A stretch of DNA of 64,000 bases from [Clostridium] saccharolyticum WM1. GTDB taxonomy: Bacteria; Bacillota; Clostridia; Lachnospirales; Lachnospiraceae. Positions 11,041 to 61,792 of the stretch are shown here, one piece after another; the first letter of the stretch is position 1; every line of letters begins with the position of its first letter. The notes beneath the pieces were generated by a model. The model made no database searches and was not told the DNA's origin. It saw only the letters and a list, made by a program, of their open reading frames with translations. The stretch covers positions 4,550,501 to 4,614,500 of the forward strand of contig NC_014376.1 in NCBI RefSeq assembly GCF_000144625.1, written 5' to 3'. The position numbers and the translations under genes are program-made.

Positions 11041-11115
11041 GAGACCAGAGCCGTTTTAGGACTTCCAGCCTATGGAAGATGATACAAATAATTCAAAATA
11101 AGATGCAATTTCTCA

Positions 11116-11172
11116 TATTGACCGAATCGGTTCATGGTGTTATAATCAGATCATAAACCGATTCGGTCAATA
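11116..11172. promoter_or_regulatory. Promoter with two inverted TetR operators
   Basis: A 17-base element at 11116-11132 (TATTGACCGAATCGGTT) is repeated as an exact reverse complement at 11156-11172. Each contains the palindrome ACCGAATCGGT or ACCGATTCGGT, with centres 36 bases apart. Within the left copy TTGACC (11118-11123) forms a -35 box, followed after 17 bases by a consensus TATAAT (11141-11146). A repressor bound at both sites would cover the -35 box and the start of transcription, so the downstream TetR gene is probably self-repressed together with its operon. Confidence 0.85.
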
Positions 11173-11192
11173 TGGTTTCAGAAGGTGAAATT

Positions 11193-47235: not shown

Positions 47236-47610
47236 TTATTCGCCGCCTTCGATTGTCACCACCACACGGTTTGGCAGGCAGACAATCAGTTCTCCGCTCT
47301 TATGGATCCTTCCAGTGCGGACACATACCTTATCCGGACAGGAAGCCTCCGTAATGCTGGCATAGCCATCCTTTATGACCAGGTGGTCCGTACCCCCAAG
47401 CCCATCAATGATCATGTCTGTGTCCTTATAAAGATCCAGTGCTGCCACAGTCTTTCCGTCTACGGTGACCACCACCTGCTCCGGTGCTTTTCTGTTTCCG
47501 GCATAAAATACTGCGGAAAGCAGACCTGCCGTCACCAGGATAGCGGCAATGAGAATCAGCTCTCTTCTTTGCTTGACAGTTAATTTTTTTAAATGTTCCA
47601 ATTCCGCCAC
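47236..47610 (-). CDS. NusG domain II-containing membrane-anchored protein
   Basis: This is a 124-residue protein: a membrane helix near 18-38 (LILIAAILVTAGLLSAVFYA) and an extracellular NusG domain II-like beta domain (EQVVVTVDGKTVAALDL, then ASCPDKVCVRTGRI). The paired Cys in CPDKVC are characteristic of this family. Such proteins are found beside flavin-based electron-transfer, Rnf-like and ApbE loci in Firmicutes; here it is divergent from the electron-transfer operon that starts at 47896. Function unknown; a link to that operon is inferred. Confidence 0.88.
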   Translation of the reverse strand: MAELEHLKKLTVKQRRELILIAAILVTAGLLSAVFYAGNRKAPEQVVVTVDGKTVAALDLYKDTDMIIDGLGGTDHLVIKDGYASITEASCPDKVCVRTGRIHKSGELIVCLPNRVVVTIEGGE

Positions 47611-47895: not shown

Positions 47896-49914
47896 TTGAA
47901 GAAAATAGTAGTGCTAGGTGCCGGTTATGCCGGTATTTTAACTGCCAAAAAACTGGAAAAAAAATTCCGTAAATTGAAGATGGACCATGAAGTAAGCATC
48001 TCCATCATCGACAGGCATCCATTCCATACCATGCTCACTGAACTTCACGAGGTGGCCGCTGGAAGAGTTGAGGAAGACAGTATCCGCATCAGCTTAAAGA
48101 AAGTATTTGCAGGCAGGAATGTGGAGATCATCACAGACACCATCAGCCAGATATCCATTGAGGAGAAAAAACTGACGGGAAGCCAGGGCGAATATGATTA
48201 TGACTATCTGGTTCTGGCCGCCGGGTCCAAACCTACCTTTTTCGGTGTGGAAGGCGCAGAGGAATATTCTTATAAGCTTTGGTCCTATGAAGATGCTATG
48301 TTATTAAAGGAACGGATCCATGAAATGTTCCGCAACGCAGCCTGTGAGCCGGATGAGAAGGAAAAACGCCGCCTTTTGACTTTTTATGTAGTTGGAGCCG
48401 GTTTTACCGGTGTGGAGATGGCGGGAGAACTGGCAGAATATGTACCCTTCCTGTGCGAAGAGTATGAAATAGATCCGTCTCTTGTTTCCATGCATGACGT
48501 GGATATATTAAAGAGAACAGTACCCATTCTTCCGGAGAAGCTGTCCGGTAAAGTAGAACGGCGCCTGGAAAAGATGGGCGTAACGGTAATGATGGAAACC
48601 GGCGTGACGGCTATTGGCAAGGATTACATCGAGTTGAATCAAAACGGCAGGAAGAACCAGTATCCGGCCGGGACGGTGATCTGGACAGCCGGTATCGAAA
48701 GCGCAGATATCACCGGGGAAGCGGCAAAAACCCTGGAATCCGTCGGACGCGGAAGAATCCAGGTTGATTCTTACCTTCGGGCCAAGGATCATGAAGAAGT
48801 TTATGTGGTAGGCGACAACATGATGTATGTTCCCCAGGGGGAGAAAGATCCTGTTCCCCAGATGGTGGAAAACTGTGAGCAGAGCGCGGATACCGCTGCC
48901 CGCAATATGGTATGCGCCATTACGGGTACAGGTGCTATGGAGGAGTATCATCCATCCTTCCACGGTGTTATGGTTTCTGTAGGCGGCCGTTATGGAGTCG
49001 CAAGGGTAGGCCTTCCCAGCCATATGTTCAATCTTTGTTCCTTCTTTGCCATGTTATCAAAGCATTTTATTAATGTGGTTTATTTTATCCAGGTACTGGG
49101 CTGGAATAAGGTTTGGAGCTATGTATGCCATGAATTCTTTACCATTCGCAACCGCAGAAGCTTTCTGGGCGGGCATTTCTCCAACAGGACCCCAAGCTTC
49201 CTGCTGGCCCCTCTTCGGGTGTGGCTGGGTGCTGTATGGGTGTTTGAAGGTGTTATGAAGATTGTGGAAGGCTGGATGGGCCAGCCTATGCTCAGCGGAT
49301 TCTTTGGAGGCGCCAATCAGTTTTTCAACAGCATCCTGGCTCCCTACGGAATCACAGGCATCGGCGGAGCTGCTCCTTCTGCAGATGCAGTTGCCAGCGC
49401 AACCTCTGCTGCGGCTGACGCGGTTTCCAGTGCCACCGGAGCTGCAGCCGGTGCAGTATCTGCGGGTGTGCCTGTTTTCTCCTATCATATTTTAGGAATC
49501 ATTGACGCTACCCTTGTCAGCTCTGTAGGCTTATCCCATGCTACTTTGTCTGATTATGCCTTTAAACTGGACTTTGCACCTATGAACTGGTTTGTAAACA
49601 ATGTCATCCTGCCTAACGGCGGACTGCAGCTTTTCATGCAGCGGGGGATCGTGATTGCAGAGATCCTCATCGGCCTTGCTTTGATGGCAGGTTTATTCAA
49701 TTTCCTTTCCTCCGGTGTGTCCCTGGTGCTTCAGTTTATGTTCGTCTGTACCACCGGTCTTTACTTAAACACGTTCTGGATGATTTTCGCCGGCATTGCA
49801 GTCTTAATCGGCGGCGGCAGAACCTTTGGTCTTGATTATTATGTCATGCCCTGGCTTAAGAAAAAATGGAGAAAACTTCCCTTTATAAGGAAGTGGTATT
49901 TATACAATGACTAA
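47896..49914 (+). CDS. Type II NADH dehydrogenase (Ndh2-like) with C-terminal membrane extension
   Basis: This 672-residue flavoenzyme should oxidise NADH and reduce a membrane quinone. The FAD motif VVLGAGYAG is at 4-12, the NADH motif VVGAGFTGVEMAG near 165, and VYVVGDNMM near 305 marks the second FAD segment. After about 400 a second part begins that ordinary Ndh2 (about 400-430 residues) lacks: several membrane helices (WLGAVWVFEGVMKIVEGW; IAEILIGLALMAGLFNFL) resembling DoxX, split by an Ala/Ser-rich loop. Ndh2 of the Listeria electron-transfer locus has a comparable extension. TTG start, with AAGGAGGGG upstream. It is the first gene of the operon and overlaps the next by eight bases. Confidence 0.9.
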   Translation: MKKIVVLGAGYAGILTAKKLEKKFRKLKMDHEVSISIIDRHPFHTMLTELHEVAAGRVEEDSIRISLKKVFAGRNVEIITDTISQISIEEKKLTGSQGEYDYDYLVLAAGSKPTFFGVEGAEEYSYKLWSYEDAMLLKERIHEMFRNAACEPDEKEKRRLLTFYVVGAGFTGVEMAGELAEYVPFLCEEYEIDPSLVSMHDVDILKRTVPILPEKLSGKVERRLEKMGVTVMMETGVTAIGKDYIELNQNGRKNQYPAGTVIWTAGIESADITGEAAKTLESVGRGRIQVDSYLRAKDHEEVYVVGDNMMYVPQGEKDPVPQMVENCEQSADTAARNMVCAITGTGAMEEYHPSFHGVMVSVGGRYGVARVGLPSHMFNLCSFFAMLSKHFINVVYFIQVLGWNKVWSYVCHEFFTIRNRRSFLGGHFSNRTPSFLLAPLRVWLGAVWVFEGVMKIVEGWMGQPMLSGFFGGANQFFNSILAPYGITGIGGAAPSADAVASATSAAADAVSSATGAAAGAVSAGVPVFSYHILGIIDATLVSSVGLSHATLSDYAFKLDFAPMNWFVNNVILPNGGLQLFMQRGIVIAEILIGLALMAGLFNFLSSGVSLVLQFMFVCTTGLYLNTFWMIFAGIAVLIGGGRTFGLDYYVMPWLKKKWRKLPFIRKWYLYND

Positions 49915-50893
49915 TAGAGAATTGTTGGAGGATTCCGTCGGGCTGCGGTATGATTTTGAAGAGGCATTTCATTTGATGGCAGTGACTGTGGAGAAGCATT
50001 TAGCTTCCGCCCCTCCAGTCATCAGGAACTACACGGCCCATCTGGCGAAATCCACAGGCAAATTCATCCGTGCCTACGGTCTGATGGCCTGTTCCATGGA
50101 TGAGGAAGATAAAGTCCCGGCGGACGCCGTCACTTTGGCATCTGCGGTAGAACTGCTGCATCTGGCTACCCTGGTTCATGACGATGTGATCGATGACGCT
50201 GATACAAGGCGGGGAATTGAAACGCTTCAAAAGAGATTCGGAAAAAAAGCTGCTGTCATCTGCGGAGATTACCTGTTGTCTCTGGCGTTGAAACTGGCGT
50301 CTTCCATTCCTCAGAAAAACCAATATGAGGCATTGGATATGCCAAATTACCTGTGCAGGATCTGCATGGGTGAACTACGTCAGGAAATTAACAACGGGAA
50401 CCTGGATTTGTCGGTTTACCGGTATTTAAGCATCATCAAGGGAAAGACTGCGGCTCTTTTTGAAGCCTCTTTTCACGGCGGCGCCATGCTTTCCACAAAA
50501 GATGAGAGAAAACTCCGCATGTACCGGAAGGCTGGAAACGATGTGGGCATGATTTTCCAGCTTATGGATGACTGCATCGATTATGAGATGGAGGAGACGG
50601 AAGCCAAGAAAAATGTCCGCTCCGATTATGAAGAAGGAGTCGTTACCCTTCCTCTCATCCATGCGATGAATCAGGATGAGAGTTTTTCCGGCCAGGTTAA
50701 AAATGGCCTTGTTTCCGCCAAGGAGCTTTATACCAAAGTTTTAGAAGCCGGAGGAACTGCTTATACAAAAGCCGTTGCCGGCAGATACTATGGAAAAGCT
50801 TCAAACACCATCGGCAATCTGGGATTATCCGAAGCCAAAAAGGCTCGAATCATGACCGTGGTGGATAAATCTTATTATGGTATTAAAAAATAA
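49907..50893 (+). CDS. Polyprenyl (heptaprenyl-type) diphosphate synthase
   Basis: This 328-residue trans-prenyltransferase builds the isoprenoid side chain of a quinone from IPP and FPP. The first Asp-rich motif is VHDDVIDDADTRRG near 83-96 and the second is FQLMDDCIDYE near 217. It overlaps the Ndh2-like gene by eight bases and is followed by the FMN-binding lipoprotein, the position of dmkB in the Listeria electron-transfer locus. Chain length cannot be read reliably from the sequence. Confidence 0.93.
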   Translation: MTNRELLEDSVGLRYDFEEAFHLMAVTVEKHLASAPPVIRNYTAHLAKSTGKFIRAYGLMACSMDEEDKVPADAVTLASAVELLHLATLVHDDVIDDADTRRGIETLQKRFGKKAAVICGDYLLSLALKLASSIPQKNQYEALDMPNYLCRICMGELRQEINNGNLDLSVYRYLSIIKGKTAALFEASFHGGAMLSTKDERKLRMYRKAGNDVGMIFQLMDDCIDYEMEETEAKKNVRSDYEEGVVTLPLIHAMNQDESFSGQVKNGLVSAKELYTKVLEAGGTAYTKAVAGRYYGKASNTIGNLGLSEAKKARIMTVVDKSYYGIKK

Positions 50894-50928
50894 TACAATA
50901 GAAAGCAACATAAGGAGGAGTAATTTCT

Positions 50929-52044
50929 ATGAAAAAACGAGTATTAGCTTTAGGATGCGGCCTCATGGCAGCAGCCTCCATTCTGGCAGGGTGTTCTTCC
51001 AATTTAAAGCAGACACCGACAACTGCAGCACCGACAGAAGCTGCAACTACTGCCGCACCGGACACTCAGGCAGAAACCACCACAGAAGCTGCAAAGGCTG
51101 AGGCTGCAGGCGGCGCCCTGTCTACGGGTTATGCAGTACTTTCTTCCATCGGTAAATCTACGGATGCAGGCGAAAAAGATGGCCTTGCTGAAGTAGATAC
51201 CATGTTTGCAGCCGTACTGGTCGACGAAAGCGGAAAGATCGTAGACTGTAAGATTGATTCCATTCAGACCAAGGTAAACTTCTCCAAGGAAGGGAAACTA
51301 CTTACAGATCTTGGTACTGTCGTTGAATCCAAAAATGAACTGGGAGAGAAATACGGCATGAAAAAAGCTTCCGGTATCAGCAAGGAATGGAATGAGCAGG
51401 CTGCCGGCTTTGCCAAGTATGTCATCGGAAAAACAGCTGATGAAGTTAAGGGAATCGCTGTTTCTTCTGAGGGCCTTGCAGACGATGCAGACTTAAAGGC
51501 TACCATCACCGTTCATATCGGAGACTTTATTAATGTTGTTGATCAGGCTGTTGCTAATGCCAAGAGCGCTGGCGCTGCAGAAGGCGACAAACTGGGCTAT
51601 GGCATCGTAACCGGTATCAGAAAGTCCAAAGATGCAGCCGCAGATGCTGACGGTGTCGCACAGGCTTATTCTACCTACACCATTGCCACCTTTGGCGCAG
51701 ACGGAAAAATCACAAGCTGTGTTCTGGACGCTTCTCAGGTCAATGTAAACTTCAATGCTGCCGGCAAGATCACCAGCGACTTAAAGTCCACTGATTTTAA
51801 GACCAAGGATCAGCTGGGTGATGCCTATGGCATGAAAAAAGCTTCCGGTATCGGAAAAGAATGGAATGAGCAGGCTGCCAGCTTCGCAGATTATGCAGTT
51901 GGCAAGACCGCCAGTGAGATTACAGGACTTGCAATTGATGAAAAAGAAGGTGCACCAACAGATGCCGATTTAAAGGCCAGCGTTACCGTTGGTATTGGTG
52001 ATTTCCAGACTGGTATCTCCAAGGCAGAAGCAAATGCAAAATAA
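50929..52044 (+). CDS. Tandem FMN-binding lipoprotein (PplA-like)
   Basis: This is an extracellular lipoprotein of 371 residues, lipobox ILAGC with Cys22, a Thr/Ala-rich linker to about 60 and two homologous FMN-binding domains (62-207 and 215-371). Each repeat shows a GYA/GYG start, VNF region, YGMKKASGI, EWNEQA and a final DADLKA(T/S)(V/I)TV segment. The last residue of that motif (Thr192, Ser351) is the likely site of covalent FMN attachment by ApbE, although the motif departs from the usual (S/T)GAT form. In Listeria PplA carries electrons from membrane quinol to extracellular acceptors. AAGGAGG lies upstream of the ATG. It is followed by apbE with an 11-base overlap. Confidence 0.88.
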   Translation: MKKRVLALGCGLMAAASILAGCSSNLKQTPTTAAPTEAATTAAPDTQAETTTEAAKAEAAGGALSTGYAVLSSIGKSTDAGEKDGLAEVDTMFAAVLVDESGKIVDCKIDSIQTKVNFSKEGKLLTDLGTVVESKNELGEKYGMKKASGISKEWNEQAAGFAKYVIGKTADEVKGIAVSSEGLADDADLKATITVHIGDFINVVDQAVANAKSAGAAEGDKLGYGIVTGIRKSKDAAADADGVAQAYSTYTIATFGADGKITSCVLDASQVNVNFNAAGKITSDLKSTDFKTKDQLGDAYGMKKASGIGKEWNEQAASFADYAVGKTASEITGLAIDEKEGAPTDADLKASVTVGIGDFQTGISKAEANAK

Positions 52045-53107
52045 AAAAGCAGCAAAATTTATTATAATTGCCGGAACTCTGGCAGCGCTTACTATGGCGG
52101 CGGTGAATACCGCCGCCATAGGAGCAAAAAAGGAACAAAAATACCACGCCGAATTTTTGAATCTCTTCGATACCGTCACACAGATTGTAGGATATGCCAA
52201 AAATAAAGAGGAATTTACTGAACTTGCTACGGAAGTACATGACGAGCTGGAAACGTACCACAAACTGTATGACATCTATCATGATTATGAAGGGATACCC
52301 AATATTAAGACCATCAATGATAATGCCGGCAAAGGCCCTGTAAAGGTGGACCCGAAGATCATACAAATGCTGAGCCTGGCCAGGGAAGCCTATGAAAAAA
52401 CAGACGGTAAGGTGAATGTGGCCATGGGAAGTGTTCTTTCCATCTGGCATGACTACCGTACCGCAGGCTTAGAAACTCCGGAAACAGCTCAGGTTCCCCC
52501 TATGGATGAGCTGAAAGCGGCCGCCCTGCATACGGATTTTTCAAAGGTAATTATCGATGAAGAAGCTTCTACCGTATATCTGGAAGACCCTGATATGAGG
52601 CTGGACGTGGGATCCATAGCAAAAGGCTATGCCACAGAGCAGGTTGCAGAATTTCTGGAAGCAAAAGGGACCGATCATATTCTTCTCAGCGTAGGAGGCA
52701 ATATCCGCGCCATTGGGAAGCGTGCAGACGGAAAGCCTTGGAAACTGGATATTCAGAACCCGGATACTGACAGCGAAAAAACCGCCATCGACACGTTGGG
52801 TCTGGACGGGCTTTCACTTGTCAGCAGCGGTGATTATGAAAGATACTATGTGGTAGACGGGGTAAAATACCATCATATCATTGATGCAGATACACTGATG
52901 CCTGCGGCATACTTCCGGGCGGTCTCTATCGTTTGCAGGGATTCCGGCTGGGCGGATGCCCTTTCTACCGCCATATTTAACCTTCCCTATGAAAAGGGGC
53001 TGGCGCTGGTTGAACGCATGGATGATGTGGAAGCAATGTGGGTCATGCCGGATGACAGCATCCGGACAAGCAGCGGCTATGAGGCATACCGCAGCCATGA
53101 CCGCTGA
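52034..53107 (+). CDS. apbE: ApbE-type FAD:protein FMN transferase
   Basis: This extracytoplasmic enzyme links FMN from FAD to Thr/Ser of target proteins. It is 357 residues with an N-terminal hydrophobic anchor (FIIIAGTLAALTMAAVNTAA) and the family motifs FDTVTQI, DVGSIAKGYATEQ, SVGGNIRAIG and DALSTAIFNL. The ATG at 52034 overlaps the end of the FMN-binding lipoprotein gene by 11 bases, a coupling that argues strongly that this lipoprotein is its substrate. The longer frame from 51989 would run into that gene and has no ribosome site. Confidence 0.95.
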   Translation: MQNKKAAKFIIIAGTLAALTMAAVNTAAIGAKKEQKYHAEFLNLFDTVTQIVGYAKNKEEFTELATEVHDELETYHKLYDIYHDYEGIPNIKTINDNAGKGPVKVDPKIIQMLSLAREAYEKTDGKVNVAMGSVLSIWHDYRTAGLETPETAQVPPMDELKAAALHTDFSKVIIDEEASTVYLEDPDMRLDVGSIAKGYATEQVAEFLEAKGTDHILLSVGGNIRAIGKRADGKPWKLDIQNPDTDSEKTAIDTLGLDGLSLVSSGDYERYYVVDGVKYHHIIDADTLMPAAYFRAVSIVCRDSGWADALSTAIFNLPYEKGLALVERMDDVEAMWVMPDDSIRTSSGYEAYRSHDR

Positions 53108-53177
53108 TTTTACAAGCACCCTGCGGGTATCCCTGGATGCCCGAAGATCATGGGCAGATTAGAGGAAAGGTGGATAT

Positions 53178-54905
53178 ATGTCATATAGAGGACTGCAGGA
53201 TTTTATTCAAACATTGGAAACGAGAGGGGAGCTGACCCGTGTAAGGGCAAAGGTATCCCCTCTCTTTGAAATAACGGAGATCACTGACAGGGTCTGCAAA
53301 TCAGAAAATCCCGGCGGCAAAGCGCTTCTTTTTGAACATGTGGAAGGCTCCCCCTATCCGGTGCTGATGAACGCCTTCGGCACGGATGGCAGAATGGCCC
53401 TTTCCCTTGGAGCAGACAGCCTGGAGGATATTGCAGCAGACATCGATGCCTATTTGGATTTTGGAAACTATACGTCTGTTTCAAAGCTGATTTCCTTTGC
53501 ACCAAAGCTGCTGCGCCTGTTGTGCTGTTTCCCTATCCGAAGCAGTATTCACCTGCGGCGTCCAAGCTGCCAGCAGGTGATCGAGAGAGAACCGGATCTG
53601 GGGAAACTGCCGGTACTCCAGTGCTGGCCACTGGACGGAGGCCGTTTCTTTACTCTTCCTCTTGTCTTTACAAAATACCCTGACACAAAGCTTCAGAACA
53701 TCGGCATGTACCGGATGCAGGTACTGGATTCCAGGACCACGGCCATGCACTGGCAGAAGCACAAGGACGGAGCCGGCATTTACGAGGCATACCGTAAAAA
53801 AGGCTGTCCAATGCCCGTATCCGTTGTACTGGGAGGGGACCCGGCCATCACCTATGCTTCCACGGCACCTCTTCCGCCAAAACTGGATGAGATGATGCTG
53901 GCTGGATTTCTCAGGAAACGGCCGGTGAAAATGGTAAAATGCATTACCAACGATCTCTACGTGCCTGAGGATGCGGAATTTGTGCTGGAAGGCTATGTGG
54001 ATCCCCAGGAAGATCTGGTTTGGGAAGGACCTTTTGGGGATCATACGGGTTATTATTCCCTGGCGGACTGGTATCCTAAATTTCATGTCACAACCATCAC
54101 CCGCAAAAAGCATCCGGTTTATCCTGCCACTGTGGTTGGTAAGCCACCTATGGAAGACTGCTATATGGCAAAGGCTACGGAACGAATTTTCCTTCCTATT
54201 TTAAAAATGGTAATTCCTGAGCTGCGGGATATCCATCTACCCTTTGAAGGAGTCTTCCATAACTGCGCAGTGGTATCCGTAAAACCTTCCTATCCTGGCG
54301 CTGCCAGGACCGTTATGAACGCTATCTGGGGTATGGGACAGATGAGGACCGCCAAGATGATCGTGGCAGTTGATGAAACCATTGATCCCAGTGATACGGC
54401 GGCAGTCTGGCGGGAGGTGTTGCGCTATGCCCATCCCGGAGAGGACTTTGTGGTCAGCAAAGGGCCATTGGATGCCTTAGATCACTCCTCTGATTACCCC
54501 TTGTACGGCGGACGGCTTGGCATTGATGCCACCAGCAAAGGGAAAGAAGCATTCCCCCAGGGCTCCATTTTCGTTCTGCCCCTCCATAAGGAACAGCCCT
54601 GGGAAGGAAGGCAAAAAGCCCTTGCTTTATTGGAAGAGAAAAAGGCTTCCCTCATAGTAGTTGTAGACGAGGATGTGGACCCCTCGGATCATTCCACCGT
54701 CATGTGGCGGGTGTTCAACAATATTGACGTTACCAGAGACATGTTTACTGCAGGCCGGCGGGCAGCTTTTGACGCCACAAGAAAAAGACTGGAGGAAGGA
54801 CTTTCCCGTCCCTGGCCCGAAGACATTGTGATGACGGATGAGGTCAGAAAAAAGGTATCAGAGAAATGGAGTACTTATGGGATCGATCATGATAAAAATA
54901 GTTAA
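53178..54905 (+). CDS. UbiD-family decarboxylase (menaquinone-type, MqnL-like)
   Basis: This 575-residue enzyme is a prenylated-FMN-dependent decarboxylase for an aromatic acid. It begins MSYRGLQDFIQTLETRGEL and contains SYPGAARTVMNAIWGMGQ and WRVFNNIDVTRD, typical of UbiD. It is longer than classical UbiD (about 490) and close to the variant in futalosine-type menaquinone synthesis, where it removes the carboxyl group of a prenylated naphthoate. GAAAGGTGG precedes the ATG. It overlaps the UbiA-like gene, and its cofactor maker UbiX is two genes downstream, so the three genes form a working set. Confidence 0.9.
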   Translation: MSYRGLQDFIQTLETRGELTRVRAKVSPLFEITEITDRVCKSENPGGKALLFEHVEGSPYPVLMNAFGTDGRMALSLGADSLEDIAADIDAYLDFGNYTSVSKLISFAPKLLRLLCCFPIRSSIHLRRPSCQQVIEREPDLGKLPVLQCWPLDGGRFFTLPLVFTKYPDTKLQNIGMYRMQVLDSRTTAMHWQKHKDGAGIYEAYRKKGCPMPVSVVLGGDPAITYASTAPLPPKLDEMMLAGFLRKRPVKMVKCITNDLYVPEDAEFVLEGYVDPQEDLVWEGPFGDHTGYYSLADWYPKFHVTTITRKKHPVYPATVVGKPPMEDCYMAKATERIFLPILKMVIPELRDIHLPFEGVFHNCAVVSVKPSYPGAARTVMNAIWGMGQMRTAKMIVAVDETIDPSDTAAVWREVLRYAHPGEDFVVSKGPLDALDHSSDYPLYGGRLGIDATSKGKEAFPQGSIFVLPLHKEQPWEGRQKALALLEEKKASLIVVVDEDVDPSDHSTVMWRVFNNIDVTRDMFTAGRRAAFDATRKRLEEGLSRPWPEDIVMTDEVRKKVSEKWSTYGIDHDKNS

Positions 54906-55755
54906 TAAACTGAATGAATACGGGAAACTGGTCATGTTCAGCCATACCATCTTTTCCCTGGCCTTCGCTGCGGTAGCCCTCCTTGCAGCTTCCGGGGGCC
55001 GGCCGGATCCAAAGGTGGTGTTCTGGGCTGCCCTTGCCTTTTTAAGTGCCAGAACAGGGGCCAATGCCCTAAACCGGGTGGTGGATGCCAGGATCGACGC
55101 AAAAAACCCCAGGACAGCCAGCCGCCAGATTCCCCGGGGGGATATTGGAATAAGGGAGACCCTGGCCCTGGTGGCTGTCTGCTTTCTGGTTATGGTGTTC
55201 AGCGCTTCCCGGTTAAACTTATTGTGCCTCCTCCTGTCTCCCATTGCTTTGTTCCTGATGACGATTTACTCCTACACAAAGCGATTTACCTGGATGTGCC
55301 ATCTGGTTCTGGGAATTACGTGCGCCTGCGCTCCCGTAGGGGCGTGGCTGGCGGTAACGGGGCATTTCTCCCTGATACCGCTTTTCTTTGGCGCGGCAAA
55401 CTGCCTCTGGACCGGGGGATTTGATATTATCTACGGCTCTCAGGATTATGAATTTGATAAGGCAAACGGCCTTCATTCCATTCCGGTCCGGTACGGCATA
55501 AAAGGCGGATTAATCATCAGCACCCTGTTCCATGGGGCGGCACTTTTTTGCCTGTGCTTTGCCGGTGTTCTACTTTATCCTCAGTTTGGTTTGCTTTACG
55601 GAACAGGTCTGGGAATCATTGCAGTCCTGATGGTGATCCAGCACCGGCTGGTATCACCGGACCACCTGGAAAATGTTAATATTGCATCATACAGCATCAG
55701 CCAGATCACCAGCATCGTGCTTCTGGTTTTCGGGACTTTGGATGTATACTTTTAA
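54877..55755 (+). CDS. UbiA-family prenyltransferase (MqnP-like)
   Basis: This integral membrane prenyltransferase of about 292 residues attaches a polyprenyl chain to an aromatic ring. The first Asp-rich motif is NALNRVVDARIDAKNPRTASR near residue 65 and the second GSQDYEFDKANGLHSIPVRYG near 200; about eight hydrophobic helices. The ATG at 54877 is chosen for GGAG upstream, and an ATG at 54889 is the alternative. It overlaps the end of ubiD. With the polyprenyl synthase in the same operon and UbiD/UbiX on either side, its product is probably a prenylated naphthoate. Whether the ring is a 2- or 6-naphthoate is inferred, not seen. Confidence 0.92.
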   Translation: MGSIMIKIVNKLNEYGKLVMFSHTIFSLAFAAVALLAASGGRPDPKVVFWAALAFLSARTGANALNRVVDARIDAKNPRTASRQIPRGDIGIRETLALVAVCFLVMVFSASRLNLLCLLLSPIALFLMTIYSYTKRFTWMCHLVLGITCACAPVGAWLAVTGHFSLIPLFFGAANCLWTGGFDIIYGSQDYEFDKANGLHSIPVRYGIKGGLIISTLFHGAALFCLCFAGVLLYPQFGLLYGTGLGIIAVLMVIQHRLVSPDHLENVNIASYSISQITSIVLLVFGTLDVYF

Positions 55756-55776
55756 AGCAAAGGAAAGAGACGGACA

Positions 55777-56361
55777 ATGAAACAATATGTAGTTGGAATA
55801 ACAGGCGCAAGCGGCAGTATTTACGGCCTGCGGACAACGGAGGCCCTGCTTGAGGCCGGAGCCAGAGTGCGGCTCATACTGACCGGAACCGGGGAAAAGG
55901 TGGTTGCCTACGAGACCGGACAGGAAGCCGGTGAGTGGATCGCCGGCTTTAAGAAACGATTCCCGGATCAGCTTATTCCGGAAGATAACAGTGATCTGTT
56001 TTCTGCGTCTGCCAGCGGTTCCCATCTGGCGGATGGAATGATTATTGCCCCTTGCTCCATGTCAAAACTGGCCCACATTTCGGCAGGCATTACACCGGAT
56101 CTGATGACACGGGCTGCGGATGTGGCACTGAAGCAGCGCCGACCTCTGGTGCTGATGCCAAGGGAAACCCCCCTGTCCCAGATCCATCTGAAAAATATGC
56201 TGGCACTGGCAGAGTGCGGAGCCTTTATCGTACCCGCCATGCCCGCCTTCTATCAAAAGCCAAAAAGCCTTGATGACATGGCAGATTTCATGGCAGGCCG
56301 GGTATTGGACTGCCTGGGAGTGGAAAACCACCGGTATGCCAGGTGGAAAGAAGAAGTATAA
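55777..56361 (+). CDS. ubiX: UbiX-type flavin prenyltransferase
   Basis: This 194-residue soluble enzyme makes prenylated FMN, the cofactor of UbiD. FMN-binding motifs are GITGASGSIYG near the N-terminus, APCSMSKLAHISAGITPDL in the centre and VLMPRETPLS. AAAGGAAAGAGAC precedes the ATG. Its place after ubiD and ubiA shows that it serves that decarboxylase. Confidence 0.95.
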   Translation: MKQYVVGITGASGSIYGLRTTEALLEAGARVRLILTGTGEKVVAYETGQEAGEWIAGFKKRFPDQLIPEDNSDLFSASASGSHLADGMIIAPCSMSKLAHISAGITPDLMTRAADVALKQRRPLVLMPRETPLSQIHLKNMLALAECGAFIVPAMPAFYQKPKSLDDMADFMAGRVLDCLGVENHRYARWKEEV

Positions 56362-56428
56362 AATAATATATATCAAATAACTAAAAAGGATTATAAGAAA
56401 ATATATGGAAAATTCAGGAAAGAAAACA

Positions 56429-57379
56429 ATGAAACAACGCCTCTTAAGAGGCAGAAAAATCCTCCCTCTGCTGCTGTGGGGCGCAGCGGCCGCCCTTTTA
56501 AGCGGTTGTACCGGCAAGGCCGCTCCCCCGGTGGATACCACTATTCATTTGGGAGTCATGTATTCTTCCGATATCGTACCCCTTACCATCATTACAGAAC
56601 AGGGACTTGATAAAAAGTACGGGTTTCAGCTGGATATGCAGGTATTTTCTTCGGCCAAAGACCGGGATGCGGCCCTTCAGGCCGGAAAGCTGGACGGAGT
56701 GTTTACTGATTTTATCGGTCTGTGCATGTATCAGAATGCCGGACTGGACGTAAAGGCTACCGGATGTACGGATGGGGATTATGTACTGCTGGCCGGAAAA
56801 GATACCGGGATCACTTCTCTGGAAGCTGGAGCCGGAAAAAGCATTGCAATATCAGAAAATACTCTGATTGAATATTCTCTTGATTATATTTTAAATAATG
56901 CCGGATTGGATGATACATATCTGGACAAGCAGGTGGTGCCGAGGATCCCTGACAGACTTGAAATGCTGCGAAACGGCAAAGTAGATCTGGTTCTTCTGCC
57001 GGAGCCCTTTTCCACTCTTGCCATTAAGGATGGCGCCGTCATCCTGGGAAGCGCCAACACGGACGGGCTGTATCCCGCAGTATCTGCATTCACACAGAAA
57101 GCCATTGAAGAAAAATCCGCCCCCCTTCAAAAGATGTATCAGGCATACGATGAAGCCGTTGACTACCTTAACAGCACACCTCTTAAGGAATATGAAGCCG
57201 TTGTCATCAAGGGTGCAGGTTACCCGGAGGAACTTACCGGAAGCATCAAGCTTCCTGTATTCCGGAAAAATGAGCTGCCAAAGACTGCTGACCTGCAGGC
57301 TGCCGTGGAATGGGCATCAGAGAAAGGGTTATGCAGCCCAGATTTAAAGCCCGAAGAATTGATGGGAAAACTGAAATAA
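56429..57379 (+). CDS. ABC transporter substrate-binding lipoprotein (NMT1/SsuA type)
   Basis: This is an extracellular type-2 periplasmic-binding-fold lipoprotein of about 316 residues. The signal peptide ends in lipobox LLSGC, then DTTIHLGVMYSSDIVPLTII and GKLDGVFTDFIGL, with LVLLPEPFS and GAVILGSAN in the second lobe, a pattern of NMT1/ThiY/SsuA proteins that bind aromatic or sulfonate-like ligands. The ATG at 56429 follows AGGAAAG; an ATG at 56405 is possible. It lies directly behind ubiX and before an ATPase and permease. The ligand is unknown; a quinone precursor is a tempting guess since this fold is shared with futalosine enzymes MqnA and MqnD. Confidence 0.85.
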   Translation: MKQRLLRGRKILPLLLWGAAAALLSGCTGKAAPPVDTTIHLGVMYSSDIVPLTIITEQGLDKKYGFQLDMQVFSSAKDRDAALQAGKLDGVFTDFIGLCMYQNAGLDVKATGCTDGDYVLLAGKDTGITSLEAGAGKSIAISENTLIEYSLDYILNNAGLDDTYLDKQVVPRIPDRLEMLRNGKVDLVLLPEPFSTLAIKDGAVILGSANTDGLYPAVSAFTQKAIEEKSAPLQKMYQAYDEAVDYLNSTPLKEYEAVVIKGAGYPEELTGSIKLPVFRKNELPKTADLQAAVEWASEKGLCSPDLKPEELMGKLK

Positions 57380-57406
57380 AAAATCAGGATGAAAGGAGGG
57401 AACCAG

Positions 57407-58162
57407 ATGCTGGAAGTAAATGACGTTTCCGTTACATATGAAAAAGGCGGGATACATAAGGTCATTGACCGTATGTCCTGGCAGCTGGAGACAGGGACGG
57501 TCCTGGCCCTGGCCGGTCCCTCCGGCTGTGGTAAATCCACCATGATCCACGCCCTGGCCGGACTCCTTCCTTATAAGGGTTCCATCACCCTGGATGGAAC
57601 CTTGCTTAAACCGGAAATATGTTCCATCGGGCTGATCCCCCAGAACTACGGGCTTCTGCCCTGGAAAACCGTCAGAGAAAACTGCCTTTTTGCCGCCAGG
57701 ATCAGAGGAAATACCGGGGATTTGGAAATACGGCTTACCAACCTTTGCAGAGAACTTGGGATTCATGGTCTTTTGGACCGTTATCCTGGTACGTTAAGCG
57801 GCGGCCAGGCACAGCGTGCCGCCCTAGCCAGAGCATTTCTTATGGATCCGGAACTGCTTCTTATGGATGAACCCTTCGCAGCCCTGGATATTGGAGCTGC
57901 ATTGGCAGCAAGGGATTTATTTCTTAGGATCTGGAACGAAAAAAAGCCCACCACAGTCATTGTGACCCACCGGGTAGAAGATGCCCTTTCCCTTGCCCAC
58001 AAAATCGCGGTTATGGAACGGGGCGGGGGCCTTTATACCTTCCGCAACCCTTGGCAGGGAGTACCGCATCCTTTTGAAGCAGCATACAGGGAGCTGGAAC
58101 AGCAGATAACAGAAAAAGTTATAAAGGCGGATGAGGGCGGAAAGAAACGTTTGATTCATTAG
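57407..58162 (+). CDS. ABC transporter ATP-binding protein (SsuB/TauB type)
   Basis: This 251-residue ATPase powers the importer. Walker A is GPSGCGKST near residue 36, Q-loop LIPQNYGLLPWKT, signature LSGGQAQRAALARA, Walker B LLLMDEPFAALD, H-loop IVTHRVEDAL. The PWKT Q-loop variant is typical of the nitrate/sulfonate/taurine group. The ATG at 57407 has AAAGGAGGG upstream. It sits between the binding-protein and permease genes. Confidence 0.95.
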   Translation: MLEVNDVSVTYEKGGIHKVIDRMSWQLETGTVLALAGPSGCGKSTMIHALAGLLPYKGSITLDGTLLKPEICSIGLIPQNYGLLPWKTVRENCLFAARIRGNTGDLEIRLTNLCRELGIHGLLDRYPGTLSGGQAQRAALARAFLMDPELLLMDEPFAALDIGAALAARDLFLRIWNEKKPTTVIVTHRVEDALSLAHKIAVMERGGGLYTFRNPWQGVPHPFEAAYRELEQQITEKVIKADEGGKKRLIH

Positions 58163-58172
58163 GAGACAAAAT

Positions 58173-58910
58173 ATGAAGAAAAAATTATGGGTCTTTTTAA
58201 AGGGATTTTTGCTTGTGAATTTGTTATGGTTCCTGCTCGCCGAATTGATGGCAACTTCGGTGCTGCCTGGACCGATTACAGTCTACAGCAGATTTGACCA
58301 GGTGGCAAATGGAAAGCTATTGCTCCATATCGGAGCCAGCTTAGGCCGTGTTGGAGCGGGCTTGTCCATTGCCCTTATCATAGGCATTCCTGCTGGAATT
58401 ATCATGGCTTCTTCTCCTATGGCCAACCGCCTTCTCCACCCTCTGGTCTATTTCTCCTATCCGGTTCCCAAAACAGCTCTCCTTCCGGTCTCCATGCTTC
58501 TTTTAGGCCTAGGCAATGGATCTAAGATCCTCATCATCGTCCTGACTACGGTATTCCAGATCATAGTGGCGGTCCGGGATTCGGCAGAGCATATTGATGA
58601 AGACATTTACTATATGGCAAGAAGCGCCGGCGCCCATAAGAAAAACATACTAAAAGATATCACTCTTCCGGCAGTGCTTCCGGAGCTGTTCACCAGCATA
58701 CGGATCGGAATGGGAACCTCCCTGGCCATTCTTTTGATTGTGGAGGCTTACGGAACCCGATGGGGGCTGGGCTACTACATCCTGGACGCCTGGTCCAGAA
58801 TCAATTATATTCAAATGTACGGAGGCATTGTTGTCATGTCGGTGGTAGGTGCAGCATTGTTCTGGGCATTGGATGGGATTCAGTGGGCATTGTGCAAATG
58901 GGCAAGGTAA
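58173..58910 (+). CDS. ABC transporter permease (SsuC/TauC type)
   Basis: This 245-residue membrane subunit has six hydrophobic segments and an EAA-type loop YMARSAGAHKKNILKDITL near residue 150, typical of the nitrate/sulfonate/thiamine-precursor import group. AGGAG precedes the ATG. It closes the operon that starts with the Ndh2-like gene. Confidence 0.92.
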   Translation: MKKKLWVFLKGFLLVNLLWFLLAELMATSVLPGPITVYSRFDQVANGKLLLHIGASLGRVGAGLSIALIIGIPAGIIMASSPMANRLLHPLVYFSYPVPKTALLPVSMLLLGLGNGSKILIIVLTTVFQIIVAVRDSAEHIDEDIYYMARSAGAHKKNILKDITLPAVLPELFTSIRIGMGTSLAILLIVEAYGTRWGLGYYILDAWSRINYIQMYGGIVVMSVVGAALFWALDGIQWALCKWAR

Positions 58911-59001: not shown

Positions 59002-59208
59002 ATGAACAAACCAAAAAGGATCGCCCGCATCGGCAAGGAATGTGTGGCCTGCGGGAGCTGTGTAACAACCTGCCCGAAGGGAGCCATCGCCATTGCTTCC
59101 GGCGTTACTGCCCGGATTGACAAGGATAGGTGTATTGGCTGCGGCAAATGCGCCAGGATATGTCCTGCTGATGTAATCACAATTGAAGAACGGAGAGCCG
59201 CCGTATGA
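59002..59208 (+). CDS. 2[4Fe-4S] ferredoxin
   Basis: This is a 68-residue electron carrier with two clusters: CVACGSCVTTCPKGAI near residues 13-28 and CIGCGKCARICPADVI near 42-57, each with CxxCxxCxxxCP spacing. The ATG at 59002 has GGAGGTG upstream; an upstream TTG overlaps it. It overlaps the NapH-like gene by four bases and would transfer electrons to or from that membrane protein. Confidence 0.95.
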   Translation: MNKPKRIARIGKECVACGSCVTTCPKGAIAIASGVTARIDKDRCIGCGKCARICPADVITIEERRAAV

Positions 59209-59819
59209 AAAAGAATTGGTATGAATTTCTCTGGATTGTGGAACTCATTTATTTCATCCTGGGTCTGTGTAATATTCTCTTCGCATGGCTTGGCATGGTG
59301 TTTTTTACTATTCCCCTGCTGGCTGCCATTATGGGAGGAAACAAGATATATTGCAACCATTTTTGCGGGCGGGGGCAATTACTTGGCCTGCTGGGAGGCA
59401 GATGGAAGCTCTCCCGCAATGTGCCGCCCCCCAAATTTTTGCGCAGCCGCTGGTTCCGGTACGGGTTTCTGGCTTTTTTTATGACCATGTTCAGCCTGAT
59501 GCTTTTTAGTACTTATAAGGTTTTTGCCGGCGCACCACTGAAAGAAGCAGTAACTCTTCTGTGGGTATTTAAGCTTCCCTGGCAATGGGCAGACGTCTCC
59601 ATGACAGCTCCCTGGGTGGCGCAGTTTGCCTTCGGCTTTTTCGGCGTAATGCTGACCTCCACGATCCTGGGCCTTGGTACCATGGTTCTGTTCCGTCCCC
59701 GTTCCTGGTGCGTCTACTGCCCCATGGGGACCATGACCCAGGGAATCTGCCGGCTGAAACTGGGAAAGGAGGGTACCGACTGTGGAAGAACAAGCAAAAA
59801 AGATAGCGGAGCTGCTTAA
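59205..59819 (+). CDS. NapH-like membrane protein with iron-sulfur-type cysteines
   Basis: This 204-residue membrane protein has four hydrophobic segments (LIYFILGLCNILFAWLGMVF; GFLAFFMTMFSLMLFSTYKV; QFAFGFFGVMLTSTILGLGT). Cys pairs are visible at NHFCGRGQ and in SWCVYCPMGTMTQ (CxxCP), as in NapH/RnfH-like proteins that pass electrons between quinol or ferredoxin and the membrane, though full ferredoxin motifs are not present. It starts in the ferredoxin stop (ATGA). A direct link to sulfur, nitrogen or selenium reduction is not evident. Confidence 0.75.
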   Translation: MKKNWYEFLWIVELIYFILGLCNILFAWLGMVFFTIPLLAAIMGGNKIYCNHFCGRGQLLGLLGGRWKLSRNVPPPKFLRSRWFRYGFLAFFMTMFSLMLFSTYKVFAGAPLKEAVTLLWVFKLPWQWADVSMTAPWVAQFAFGFFGVMLTSTILGLGTMVLFRPRSWCVYCPMGTMTQGICRLKLGKEGTDCGRTSKKDSGAA

Positions 59820-60066
59820 AATATTGGCCAATGAGCACCGCCTGCTGATATTGTGCGCACTGATCCAAGGGCCCCTTGCGGTAGGAGAAATCCACAAATA
59901 TACTCCCAACATTACCTCTTCCGCGCTCTCACAGCATTTGAACCAAATGAAGACAGCGGGTATCCTGTCTTCTGAAAAACTGGGTATGAACGTGGTATAC
60001 AGCATTCAGGACCAGCGGGTGATCTTACTGATCGGGTCTATCAAAGAGCACTACTGCAGGGAATGA
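59782..60066 (+). CDS. ArsR-family transcriptional regulator
   Basis: This is a 94-residue winged-helix repressor: LLKILANEHRLLILCALIQG, then NITSSALSQHLNQMKTAGIL as recognition helix and VVYSIQDQRVILLI as the wing. It has few Cys (CAL and the C-terminal HYC), so metal sensing is not obvious; a redox or small-molecule signal is possible. GTG start with AAAGGAGGG upstream; the gene overlaps the end of the NapH-like gene by 38 bases. It probably represses the operon through the palindrome at 58964. Confidence 0.9.
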   Translation: MEEQAKKIAELLKILANEHRLLILCALIQGPLAVGEIHKYTPNITSSALSQHLNQMKTAGILSSEKLGMNVVYSIQDQRVILLIGSIKEHYCRE

Positions 60067-60087
60067 ATTTGATGGGCGAATAAGATC

Positions 60088-60128
60088 AAAGGCAAGGGGA
60101 CTGGCAGATGCCAGTCCCCTTGCCTTTT
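60088..60128 (+). terminator. Terminator of the ferredoxin-arsR operon
   Basis: A perfect 15-bp stem (60091-60105 with 60110-60124) and a four-base loop are followed by TTTT. Confidence 0.92.
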
Positions 60129-60174
60129 GCCGCTTACCCATAGAGACAGGAGCGGTTTATATTCTGTTTTTCTT

Positions 60175-60378
60175 TTAGGTAAACTGATTCGCCAGGGTGC
60201 TGAGCACCTTTGCCTGGGCGGTAGCCGAATTGGACTGCACCACTGCCGTAATTTTCACCACACTGTCGGTGATGTGGGAGACAGAACGGCTTTGCTCCTC
60301 TGAGGCTGACTGGATCTCTCCGATGCCAGATGCAATCTCTCTGGCATCCATTAATACAGTGCTTAACATCCGGACCAT
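60175..60378 (-). pseudogene. Remnant of a methyl-accepting chemotaxis protein C-terminus
   Basis: The frame encodes DAREIASGIGEIQSASEEQS and SVSHITDSVVKITAVVQSNSATAQAKVLSTLANQF, the descending signalling helix of a chemoreceptor. The usual EESAAASEEL stretch after NSATA is missing, and the N-terminal sensor, HAMP domain and hairpin tip are absent; no AGGAGG-type start is seen. It is a decayed fragment; upstream sequence to 60475 shows no continuous frame. Confidence 0.7.
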
Positions 60379-60498
60379 GGAATCAGTTAAGTCCTTTCCT
60401 GTACAATCAATTCTTCCAGATATTTCAGATTTATTGAGATCTTCCCAGAAGTATGGCCACTCTGAAGTAATATGATTGCCGGCAAAAATACTTATGTT

Positions 60499-60511
60499 GT
60501 GTATTTTACAC
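60499..60511. promoter_or_regulatory. Short inverted repeat upstream of the iron-type binding protein
   Basis: GTGTA-TTT-TACAC lies about 100 bases before the coding start at 60609. It may be an operator; it does not match the 19-bp Fur consensus well enough to call. Confidence 0.25.
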
Positions 60512-60608
60512 CTTTGTGTGATATTGTCGGATTTACATTTCCAGTCCCCACAGCTAAAATGGTACTATCAGATAAACAGTGAAACAACCATAGGGAGGAA
60601 AGAATCGC

Positions 60609-61697
60609 ATGAAGAAAACAGCAAAAATATCAGCAGTCTTATTAGCCATGGCACTGGCAGCCACCGGCTGCAGCTCTGGAAAACCGGCTGATAATAACAC
60701 AGCGGCTGACACGGGAAAAACTCAGGCTGCCGCTCAGACACCAGGAGAGGAAGATCCGGTTTTGGTAGTCTATACCGCCCGCGGCGAATCTTTAAACAAT
60801 GCCGTGATTCCGGAATTTGAAAAGGACACCGGCATTAAAGTCGAGGTGGTAGTCGCCGGCACCGGCGAGCTGTTAAAAAGAGCTCAGTCAGAAAAAGCCA
60901 ATCCTCTTGGCGATATCTTCTGGGTGGCTGACCAGACCATGTTATCCGCATCCAAAGACCTGTTCCTGGAATACGTATCCTCTGAAAATGACAACATGAT
61001 CGATGCCTTCAAGAATACCACCGGTTACTTTACCCCTGCATTTGCAGATCCTACGGTTATGATCGTAAACAAAGACTTAAAAGGCGATACGAAGATCGAT
61101 GGATTTGAGGATTTATTAAATCCGGAGTTAAAGGGAAAAATCGCATTTGGCGATCCAGTAAACTCCAGTTCCGCGTTCCAGTCATTGCTGGCTATGCTTT
61201 ATGGCATGGGCAAAGACGGGGATCCCCTTTCAGACGAAGCTTGGGCTTTTGTTGACAAGTTCATTGCCAACTTAGACGGTAAAATGTGCAACAGCTCCAG
61301 CCAGGTGTATAAAGGCGTGGCTGAGGGCGAATATGTGGTTGGTTTAACCTGGGAAGATCCTGCTGCCAACTATGTTAAGGAGGGTGCCGCAGTAGAAGTT
61401 GTATTCCCGGCGGAAGGAGCCATCTTCCCCGGAGAATCTGTCCAGATTCTAAAAGACTGCAAACACCCGGAAAATGCAAAGAAATTTGTAGATTATATGC
61501 TGTCAGAGAAGATCCAGAATGCTGTCGGTTCCACACTGACCGTACGGCCTTTAAGGAAAGACACCACTCTGGCTGATTATATGAAACCTCAAAATGAGAT
61601 TAAATTATTTGATAATTATGATGAGGGATGGGTAGCAGAGCACAAATTAGAAATCACCAATCGGTTCAGTGAGCACCTGGAAACATCCATGGATTAA
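60609..61697 (+). CDS. Iron(III)-type ABC transporter substrate-binding lipoprotein
   Basis: This is an extracellular family-1 binding lipoprotein of 362 residues; lipobox AATGC with Cys21, Thr/Ala-rich linker to about 48. The domain has LVVYTARGESLNNAVIPEFE, GDIFWVADQTML, PELKGKIAFGDP and GLTWEDPAANYV, typical of the FbpA/AfuA group for iron(III), phosphonate-like or 2-aminoethylphosphonate ligands. TAGGGAGGAAAG precedes the ATG. It is followed by an attenuator-like hairpin and then the ATPase and permease genes. Confidence 0.9.
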   Translation: MKKTAKISAVLLAMALAATGCSSGKPADNNTAADTGKTQAAAQTPGEEDPVLVVYTARGESLNNAVIPEFEKDTGIKVEVVVAGTGELLKRAQSEKANPLGDIFWVADQTMLSASKDLFLEYVSSENDNMIDAFKNTTGYFTPAFADPTVMIVNKDLKGDTKIDGFEDLLNPELKGKIAFGDPVNSSSAFQSLLAMLYGMGKDGDPLSDEAWAFVDKFIANLDGKMCNSSSQVYKGVAEGEYVVGLTWEDPAANYVKEGAAVEVVFPAEGAIFPGESVQILKDCKHPENAKKFVDYMLSEKIQNAVGSTLTVRPLRKDTTLADYMKPQNEIKLFDNYDEGWVAEHKLEITNRFSEHLETSMD

Positions 61698-61717
61698 TAA
61701 ACCGCATCCATTCAAAG

Positions 61718-61756
61718 AAAGACTGCCTGAGACTCAGTCAGGGGCAGTCTTTTTGT
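61718..61756 (+). terminator. Intercistronic attenuator between binding protein and ATPase
   Basis: AAAGACTGCC (61718-61727) and GGCAGTCTTT (61743-61752), with TGA/TCA extending the stem, form a hairpin followed by TTTT. It may terminate most transcripts and so give more binding protein than ATPase and permease. Confidence 0.75.
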
Positions 61757-61792
61757 ACAAAAAATTATGAAGTATGTTAGGAGACAGGAACA

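Follow-up and report, generated by a model that had tools for sequence, protein, structure and literature searches.

The ten-gene operon described here, from [Clostridium] saccharolyticum WM1, combines three late enzymes of the futalosine route to menaquinone (MqnP, MqnL and MqnM) with putative genes of flavin-based extracellular electron transfer (EET) and a three-gene ATP-binding cassette (ABC) importer. It lies at positions 47896-58910 of a 64,000-nucleotide stretch of contig NC_014376.1 (positions 4,550,501 to 4,614,500), referred to below as the window. The genome has no match over cut-off for the early menaquinone markers searched, and the importer genes recur beside mqnP, mqnL and mqnM. 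We consider it fairly probable that the cell imports 1,4-dihydroxy-6-naphthoate or a close relative and finishes it to demethylmenaquinone, in this case for EET. Import and finishing of a ring precursor had been proposed in a preliminary description of the operon, and the missing early markers and the conserved linkage support the proposal, with the identity of the ligand still a prediction.

The ten genes are co-oriented on the plus strand, and neighbouring open reading frames either overlap or are separated by at most 70 bases; gene content, coordinates and close spacing are as the preliminary description gave them. Families were assigned by searches with Pfam and NCBIfam models.

47896..49914, + strand: Ndh2-like NADH:quinone oxidoreductase, 672 amino acids, with C-terminal extension (PF07992, E 8e-36)
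49907..50893, + strand: trans-polyprenyl diphosphate synthase, DmkB/HepT role (PF00348, 181.5 bits)
50929..52044, + strand: PplA-like lipoprotein of two homologous halves, candidate carrier of flavin mononucleotide (FMN) (alignment with five homologues)
52034..53107, + strand: ApbE, flavin adenine dinucleotide:protein FMN transferase (PF02424, 234.6 bits; start placed by eye)
53178..54905, + strand: MqnL, UbiD-type decarboxylase, long form (TIGR03701; PF20696 in two stretches)
54838..55755, + strand: MqnP-like prenyltransferase of the UbiA family (PF01040; TIGR01475 over cut-off)
55777..56361, + strand: MqnM, UbiX-type flavin prenyltransferase, which makes the UbiD cofactor (TIGR00421)
56405..57379, + strand: substrate-binding lipoprotein of the ABC importer, NMT1/SsuA-like, candidate naphthoate binder (PF13379)
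57389 (or 57407)..58162, + strand: ATPase of the ABC importer (ABC ATPase families, up to 152 bits)
58173..58910, + strand: permease of the ABC importer (PF00528, 67.6 bits)

Judged by eye, the listed starts of ApbE (51989) and of the UbiA-family gene are probably too far upstream, the real start of the latter being near 54877. The gene of the substrate-binding protein (SBP) has an alternative start at 56429 beside that at 56405. For the polyprenyl synthase, the best NCBIfam models are hexaprenyl and heptaprenyl synthases, with scores below their cut-offs.

Late enzymes and missing early markers

The UbiD-type enzyme scores 600.8 bits with the menaquinone biosynthesis decarboxylase model TIGR03701 (cut-off 495.9) and 329.8 bits with the 4-hydroxy-3-polyprenylbenzoate decarboxylase model (cut-off 788). 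The UbiX-type protein exceeds the cut-off of TIGR00421 (210.4 versus 108.9 bits), a model that is not specific for MqnM. The UbiA-family protein exceeds the cut-off of TIGR01475, and three MqnP models are among its best-scoring ones (277, 233 and 192 bits, all below cut-off); its score with proteobacterial UbiA is 118 bits. Ubiquinone-type UbiA and UbiD enzymes were rejected on these model scores.

MqnL occurs in two sizes: open frames have about 480-510 codons in the short form and about 565-660 in the long one. The long form, to which the protein of the window belongs, carries a second UbiD_C stretch. Second, partial MqnL matches are present in G045, G049, G062 and G220.

The genome is a single contig of 4.66 Mb, 100% complete and Lacrimispora-like. 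It contains no match to the MqnA/D family PF02621 and none to MenA. The best scores for MqnC (48.6 bits, cut-off 428), MqnE (44.5 bits, cut-off 434.6) and MenD (61.2 bits, cut-off 244.2) are far from the cut-offs, and these weak matches are taken as putative other radical-SAM and thiamine diphosphate enzymes. Among 14 named control genomes, the same searches gave matches over cut-off in four for PF02621, two for MqnC, two for MqnE, seven for MenD, six for MenA and ten for MenG. On these markers, we rejected the presence of a complete men or mqn pathway at another place in the genome. The preliminary description had held that the lack of both pathways would favour import, and the lack is borne out for MqnA/D, MqnC, MqnE, MenD and MenA; menB, menC, menE, menF, menH and mqnB were outside the search. 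Because MenG/UbiE likewise has no match over cut-off in the genome (best 52.1 bits, cut-off 158), a demethyl product is expected. PF02621 matches do occur in 9 of 61 related genomes, six of them over cut-off and two from the same genus; they are taken as putative binding proteins of ABC systems.

Linkage of the importer to MqnP, MqnL and MqnM

Of 246 genomes sampled from the order, 16 exceed the cut-off for MqnL and none that for MqnC. In eleven of the 16, including the present one, the SBP, ATPase and permease genes share a locus with mqnL, mqnP and mqnM. The arrangement varies among the eleven, with the SBP gene on the opposite strand or on the other side, or with other genes in between. Three of the remaining five (G045, G232 and G247) have a more distant importer elsewhere in the genome, scoring 165-259 bits with the SBP profile compared with at least 369 in the main group; in G232 the distant importer directly adjoins ubiX. 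MqnE and MenD are over cut-off in none of 17 order genomes searched, namely the 16 with MqnL and G220, whose MqnL match is below cut-off. The high profile scores in the order search are circular, as ten of the eleven rows of this first SBP profile came from loci found through UbiD and the eleventh is the SBP of the window; not circular are the finding that none of the other genomes among the 246 exceeds 270 bits, and the scan by SBP described next. The locus is patchy within the genus, because MqnL is over cut-off in only 6 of 25 genomes (a seventh has a fragment at a contig edge).

A scan with the SBP alignment alone, over a collection of 84,980 species, gave 205 relatives, of which the best 80 loci were kept. 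UbiD, UbiA and UbiX homologues in these loci were called by a BLAST best match of at least 110 bits. The kept loci fall into two sets. One consists of 36 loci from Clostridium, Caloramator, Thermoanaerobacterium, Fervidicola, Caproiciproducens, Anaerotruncus, Acetivibrio, Herbinix, Lacrimispora and other genera, and in their fetched DNA mqnP is present in all 36, mqnL or mqnM in addition in 35 and a permease in 33. By script, all six gene types, with the ATPase within 8 kb of the SBP gene, are present at 27 of the 36; the misses include two loci where the ATPase is farther off (L118 and L142) and some at contig ends. The distance from the SBP gene to mqnP is at most 1.3 kb in 31 loci, and 1.8-6.8 kb, on opposite strands, in the other five. 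Since the set of ubiD, ubiA, ubiX, SBP, ATPase and permease genes recurs across many genera, its association is more than chance, and the arrangement that the preliminary description had called not typical is in fact a recurrent, mostly clostridial module.

The other 44 kept loci form a single clade of the SBP tree (support 100/99), mostly from Selenomonas, Anaerovibrio, Mitsuokella and Pelosinus, with some rows lacking a family name (L119 and L143). This Negativicutes-type clade is sister to the SBPs of linked, mostly thermophilic Clostridia (support 100/92), and mqnL, mqnP and mqnM are absent from the fetched DNA at all 44 loci.

Fifty of the 80 genomes, hand-picked for spread and contig size, were searched as a whole (32 linked and 18 of the Negativicutes-type clade). 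Related species are not independent of one another, and the linkage counts were made without a phylogeny-aware test. Forty-four of the 50 have MqnL over cut-off (28 of 32 and 16 of 18, respectively); the four linked misses are explained by the edge of a contig, an mqnL interrupted by a stop codon and two diverged copies. MenD is over cut-off in a single genome (G289), while two of the Negativicutes-type clade, G322 and G311, score 165 and 161 bits (cut-off 244). The importer thus travels with the late enzymes, and the early marker MqnC is missing from every linked genome tested (0 of 32), compared with 15 of 18 genomes of the Negativicutes-type clade in which it is over cut-off.

Several linked loci have peculiarities of their own. 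At L079 (Clostridium sp. OS1-26, G289) mqnL is split by a TAA codon in the only one of the 50 genomes with MenD over cut-off, perhaps because the import route is degenerating where a Men pathway has been gained, or else through a sequence error. At L077 the module is on a contig named Calditrichales bacterium MX18-03, with no ubiX recognised and with sequences nearest to clostridial ones; the module may have been transferred horizontally, or the assembly may be misnamed or mixed. A U32 protein of about 640 amino acids (best NCBIfam models TrhP and UbiU, below cut-offs) and a class-III aminotransferase are neighbours in the fetched DNA of 18 linked loci (L051, L058, L059, L076-L078, L080, L082-L084, L086-L088, L113, L118, L124, L138 and L142), and not beside the operon of the window. 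The pair is also found at L104 of the Selenomonas-type clade, and the U32 gene alone at L116. It is pure speculation that the two proteins might carry out an oxygen-free hydroxylation and an amination of the quinone ring, giving an amino-naphthoquinone. At Selenomonas-type loci (e.g. L133, 7502-9955), the importer is preceded by unnamed proteins of about 130-150 and 264-320 amino acids that recur between loci.

Other loci offer further observations. At L057 (G247, which has the distant type of importer) a folate-family S component of an energy-coupling factor transporter, just over the cut-off of TIGR04518, is encoded at 1817-2788 near mqnL and mqnP. At L062 (G232) a protein of the nucleoside-phosphorylase family, to whose superfamily MqnB belongs, is encoded at 2653-3366 just downstream of an mqnL piece and mqnP. 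A chemoreceptor with a Cache domain (Pfam; 10453-12420) lies between mqnL and the SBP gene at L054, and L055 has an open frame of the same size there; chemotaxis towards the precursor is possible. At L049 the permease gene is followed by one for a small FMN-binding protein (Pfam; by alignment also at L050 and L051) and then by a Cache-domain sensor kinase and a response regulator, a possible system for sensing the precursor or an electron acceptor.

The binding protein and what it may carry

The importer consists of an SBP of the NMT1 fold, an ATPase and a permease, encoded next to one another. The nearest relatives are Lacrimispora (the SBP has 89% identity to an L. indolis protein and 87% to one of L. 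celerecrescens), and database names of relatives of the SBP are 'NitT/TauT family' or simply ABC transporter substrate-binding protein. The SBP profile gives only weak NMT1-type matches among PDB sequences; the best fold matches are SsuA, PqqT, TauA, CmpA and Thi5. Seven residues (R79, D80, D94, S142, T145, R176 and E178) are identical in all 47 linked SBPs, which include one duplicate (L052 and L085 have the same sequence), and in all 44 of the Negativicutes-type clade; among 13 distant SBPs, R176 is present in all and R79 in 12. From their positions near helix starts in the NMT1 fold, the seven residues, two arginines among them, form a putative ligand pocket. Compared with known importers of the NMT1/SsuA type, including PqqT, which binds the quinone cofactor pyrroloquinoline quinone, the SBP is 13-19% identical and constitutes a sequence family of its own, with invariant R79/D80 and the motif PxxPxRxExL. 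MqnD and MqnA are futalosine-pathway enzymes with a binding-protein fold, whereas the present protein is a lipoprotein and has a translocator of its own encoded beside it.

The family also has a distant branch. Eleven genomes of the order have a distant importer, eight of them without an MqnL match. In G151 and G086 (loci L201 and L202) its neighbour is a prenyltransferase for which models of 1,4-dihydroxy-2-naphthoate polyprenyltransferases score best (E 5e-35 and 1.5e-29, below cut-offs), i.e., a MenA-like enzyme, and at L194 (the case of G232 mentioned above) it adjoins UbiX. The SBPs of G151 and G086 and a relative in G143 (L203) keep R176 and have S142 replaced by M, T145 by S and P171 by N; as these positions are invariant or almost so in the main group, the changes suggest another ligand for the MenA-linked SBPs. 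At L193 and L196, and by eye also at L197, all in genomes without an MqnL match, the neighbour is a PgaB/IcaB-like polysaccharide deacetylase.

How, then, might the operon work? With the cell apparently unable to make the naphthoate ring, the lipoprotein at 56405 would capture a ring acid from solution; the most likely one is 1,4-dihydroxy-6-naphthoate, which MqnD produces in neighbours that have the futalosine pathway. The two-gene ABC translocator, whose direction is predicted to be inward, would bring the acid into the cell. The polyprenyl synthase would supply a side chain for MqnP to attach, and MqnL would decarboxylate the ring with the help of the prenylated flavin that MqnM supplies. 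PMC4746308 leaves open whether prenylation or decarboxylation comes first. The product would be demethylmenaquinone, no MenG being recognised in the genome; Ndh2 would reduce it with NADH, and the PplA-like lipoprotein, flavinylated by ApbE, would pass electrons out of the cell in flavin-based EET.

Several observations weigh against this scheme or restrict its reach. The UbiA-family protein of the window does not reach the MqnP-specific cut-offs. Two order genomes with MqnL, G123 (99% complete) and G237 (75%), have no importer of the family by SBP profile search. The importer of the Negativicutes-type clade is close (36-41% identity to that of the window) though 15 of the 18 genomes tested have MqnC over cut-off, and because of this coexistence having the importer does not strictly go with lacking the early pathway; in that clade it may serve for salvage or may take a different ligand. 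Six of the eight distant-importer genomes without MqnL have no recognised quinone-synthesis gene near the importer among the neighbours that could be identified, which were not all of them, and the distant branch may be mixed and in part carry something else. Finally, EET genes accompany only a minority of linked loci.

Other explanations must be set beside import of the 6-carboxylate. The importer might take 1,4-dihydroxy-2-naphthoate, a Men intermediate that some bacteria release, or several naphthoates, which MqnP and MqnL would accept. That this compound can act as a growth factor and supply quinone synthesis from outside the cell is known (PMC10746273, PMC5738691), and distant importers do stand beside MenA-like enzymes at L201 and L202; but the main group is tied to MqnP and MqnL, predicted to act on the 6-carboxylate (PMC4746308), the genome has no MenA match, and the substitutions in the MenA-linked SBPs and that of L203 suggest another ligand there, so that we regard this explanation as unlikely for the operon of the window. 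Quite unlikely, too, is import of an unrelated nutrient such as a thiamine precursor, a sulfonate, a flavin or a metal, by a system present by chance or as a helper. The fold matches and the 'NitT/TauT family' names of relatives would suit it, as would the separation of the importer from quinone genes in the Negativicutes-type clade, but it is at odds with the presence of mqnP at every one of the linked loci, in many genera and in rearranged gene order. A binding protein specific for a thiamine precursor or a sulfonate, which the preliminary description had raised as a contrary outcome, is not indicated: the SBP is well below the cut-off of the SsuA-family model TIGR01728 (70.5 versus 163.5 bits), and an Rfam scan of the window gave no match above gathering score (e.g., no thiamine pyrophosphate riboswitch).

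The UbiA, UbiD and UbiX families also serve ubiquinone synthesis, and UbiD-type enzymes act on many aromatic acids. It is therefore conceivable that another aromatic acid, e.g., a hydroxybenzoate, is imported and converted by the three enzymes to a benzoquinone-type lipid. We consider this very unlikely in view of the UbiD and UbiA scores given above; the later ring-modifying steps that it would need are also not seen in the operon. Lastly, unrelated and unrecognised enzymes might carry out the early futalosine steps, with the importer used only for salvage, an explanation that is compatible with naphthoate import. Non-orthologous replacements do occur in the futalosine pathway (PMC4746308), and importer and MqnC coexist in the Negativicutes-type clade; nevertheless, none of the 32 linked genomes tested reaches the cut-off for MqnC and none of the 17 order genomes searched that for MqnE, and replacement of such radical-SAM steps seems to us unlikely, which leaves the explanation with little probability.

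Ravcheev and Thiele (2016) proposed precursor exchange, with the transporters remaining to be annotated (PMC4746308); a 2017 paper in Microbiome stated that quinone-precursor transporters had not yet been described (PMC5738691); and a 2023 paper on Lactiplantibacillus plantarum, whose EET is fed by exogenous naphthoate, expects uptake pathways yet to be identified (PMC10746273). The available parts of a 2026 survey of quinone pathways (PMC13386864) and of a 2025 paper on synthesis of 1,4-dihydroxy-2-naphthoate (PMC12421875) contain nothing on import, and no description of an importer for menaquinone ring precursors was found in the titles and beginnings of abstracts of the papers listed by searches of the open-licence PMC literature. 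There is a strong and testable case that the three-gene ABC system is a candidate for an importer of the proposed kind, which would be a new transporter function. Whether it moreover represents the first family of importers for menaquinone ring precursors to be identifiable we regard as an even question; in such a family the main branch would carry 1,4-dihydroxy-6-naphthoate together with MqnP, MqnL and MqnM in Clostridia from which the early pathway was lost or in which it was never present, and the distant branch, at least partly beside MenA-like enzymes, 1,4-dihydroxy-2-naphthoate.

The late enzymes themselves belong to the same three families as those predicted for the late futalosine pathway, and are likewise adjacent; in PMC4746308, mqnP, mqnL and mqnM accompanied the Mqn pathway and were lacking in the other genomes considered, whereas the present genome has the three without an early-pathway marker. 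L. plantarum is a parallel as an EET-capable anaerobe that depends on the naphthoates of others, but it uses the 2-carboxylate and DmkA (PMC10746273), whereas here a dedicated importer is linked. If there is such an importer family, the 6-carboxylate would be a traded public good, and many futalosine pathways that seem incomplete would be completed by import. Naphthoate import would explain gene sets consisting of the late futalosine genes only, would predict anaerobes that depend on futalosine-pathway neighbours for their quinone, and would widen the set of candidate EET-capable clostridia. The conserved three-gene candidate makes the question of precursor uptake directly testable.

Putative electron-transfer genes and neighbouring genes

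Listeria DmkA is an enzyme of the MenA type. In the present operon it is replaced by MqnP, MqnL and MqnM, and the ABC importer is added. The operon is like the Listeria-type locus for flavin-based EET in having an Ndh2-like dehydrogenase, a polyprenyl synthase, a PplA-like lipoprotein and ApbE together, and with demethylmenaquinone as the expected quinone (PMC8906456). The dehydrogenase, synthase and ApbE were assigned by Pfam families, no model specific for Ndh2 being used; the Ndh2-like protein is 60-67% identical to homologues at L068-L070, L072 and L073. No EetA, EetB or FmnA was recognised in the operon, and no genome-wide search was made for them. In a survey of flavinylation (PMC8238504), the terms PplA, UbiD, DmkA, Ndh2, NusG and demethylmenaquinone are all absent.

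The lipoprotein at 50929-52044 had been described as a tandem FMN-binding protein. Its tandem nature holds, as alignment with the PplA-like homologues at the same five module loci shows two homologous halves, with DLKAT (T192) in one and DLKAS (S351) in the other. The binding of FMN is a prediction for a protein with no Pfam or NCBIfam match at E 0.001 and no useful match among PDB sequences. In Listeria PplA the flavin sites are Thr143 and Thr265, and serine is able to replace threonine (PMC8906456); by analogy, which is not proof, T192 and S351 are candidate positions for the flavins.

The importer goes with the MqnP/MqnL/MqnM arm and not with EET, to which the preliminary description had dedicated it. 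An Ndh2-like gene is present in the fetched DNA of 13 of the 36 linked loci and a PplA-like gene in five, and an importer specific for EET was rejected on these counts. Because EET genes are so infrequent at these loci, EET appears as a local use of the quinone, which may serve other chains where they are missing. One linked locus, L128, from a species named ferrireducens, has the Ndh2-like gene only. Homologues of NusG are found at nine of the 36, and in the window one such gene lies upstream of the operon.

47236..47610, - strand: NusG domain II protein, divergent from the operon (PF07009, 106 bits)

Downstream of the operon, the stretch at 59205-62893 encodes a 204-amino-acid protein that by eye has cysteine motifs of the 4Fe-4S membrane type (without an NCBIfam match), an ArsR-type regulator (by eye), and another binding protein and ATPase, the best NCBIfam models of that binding protein being 2-aminoethylphosphonate types, below cut-off.

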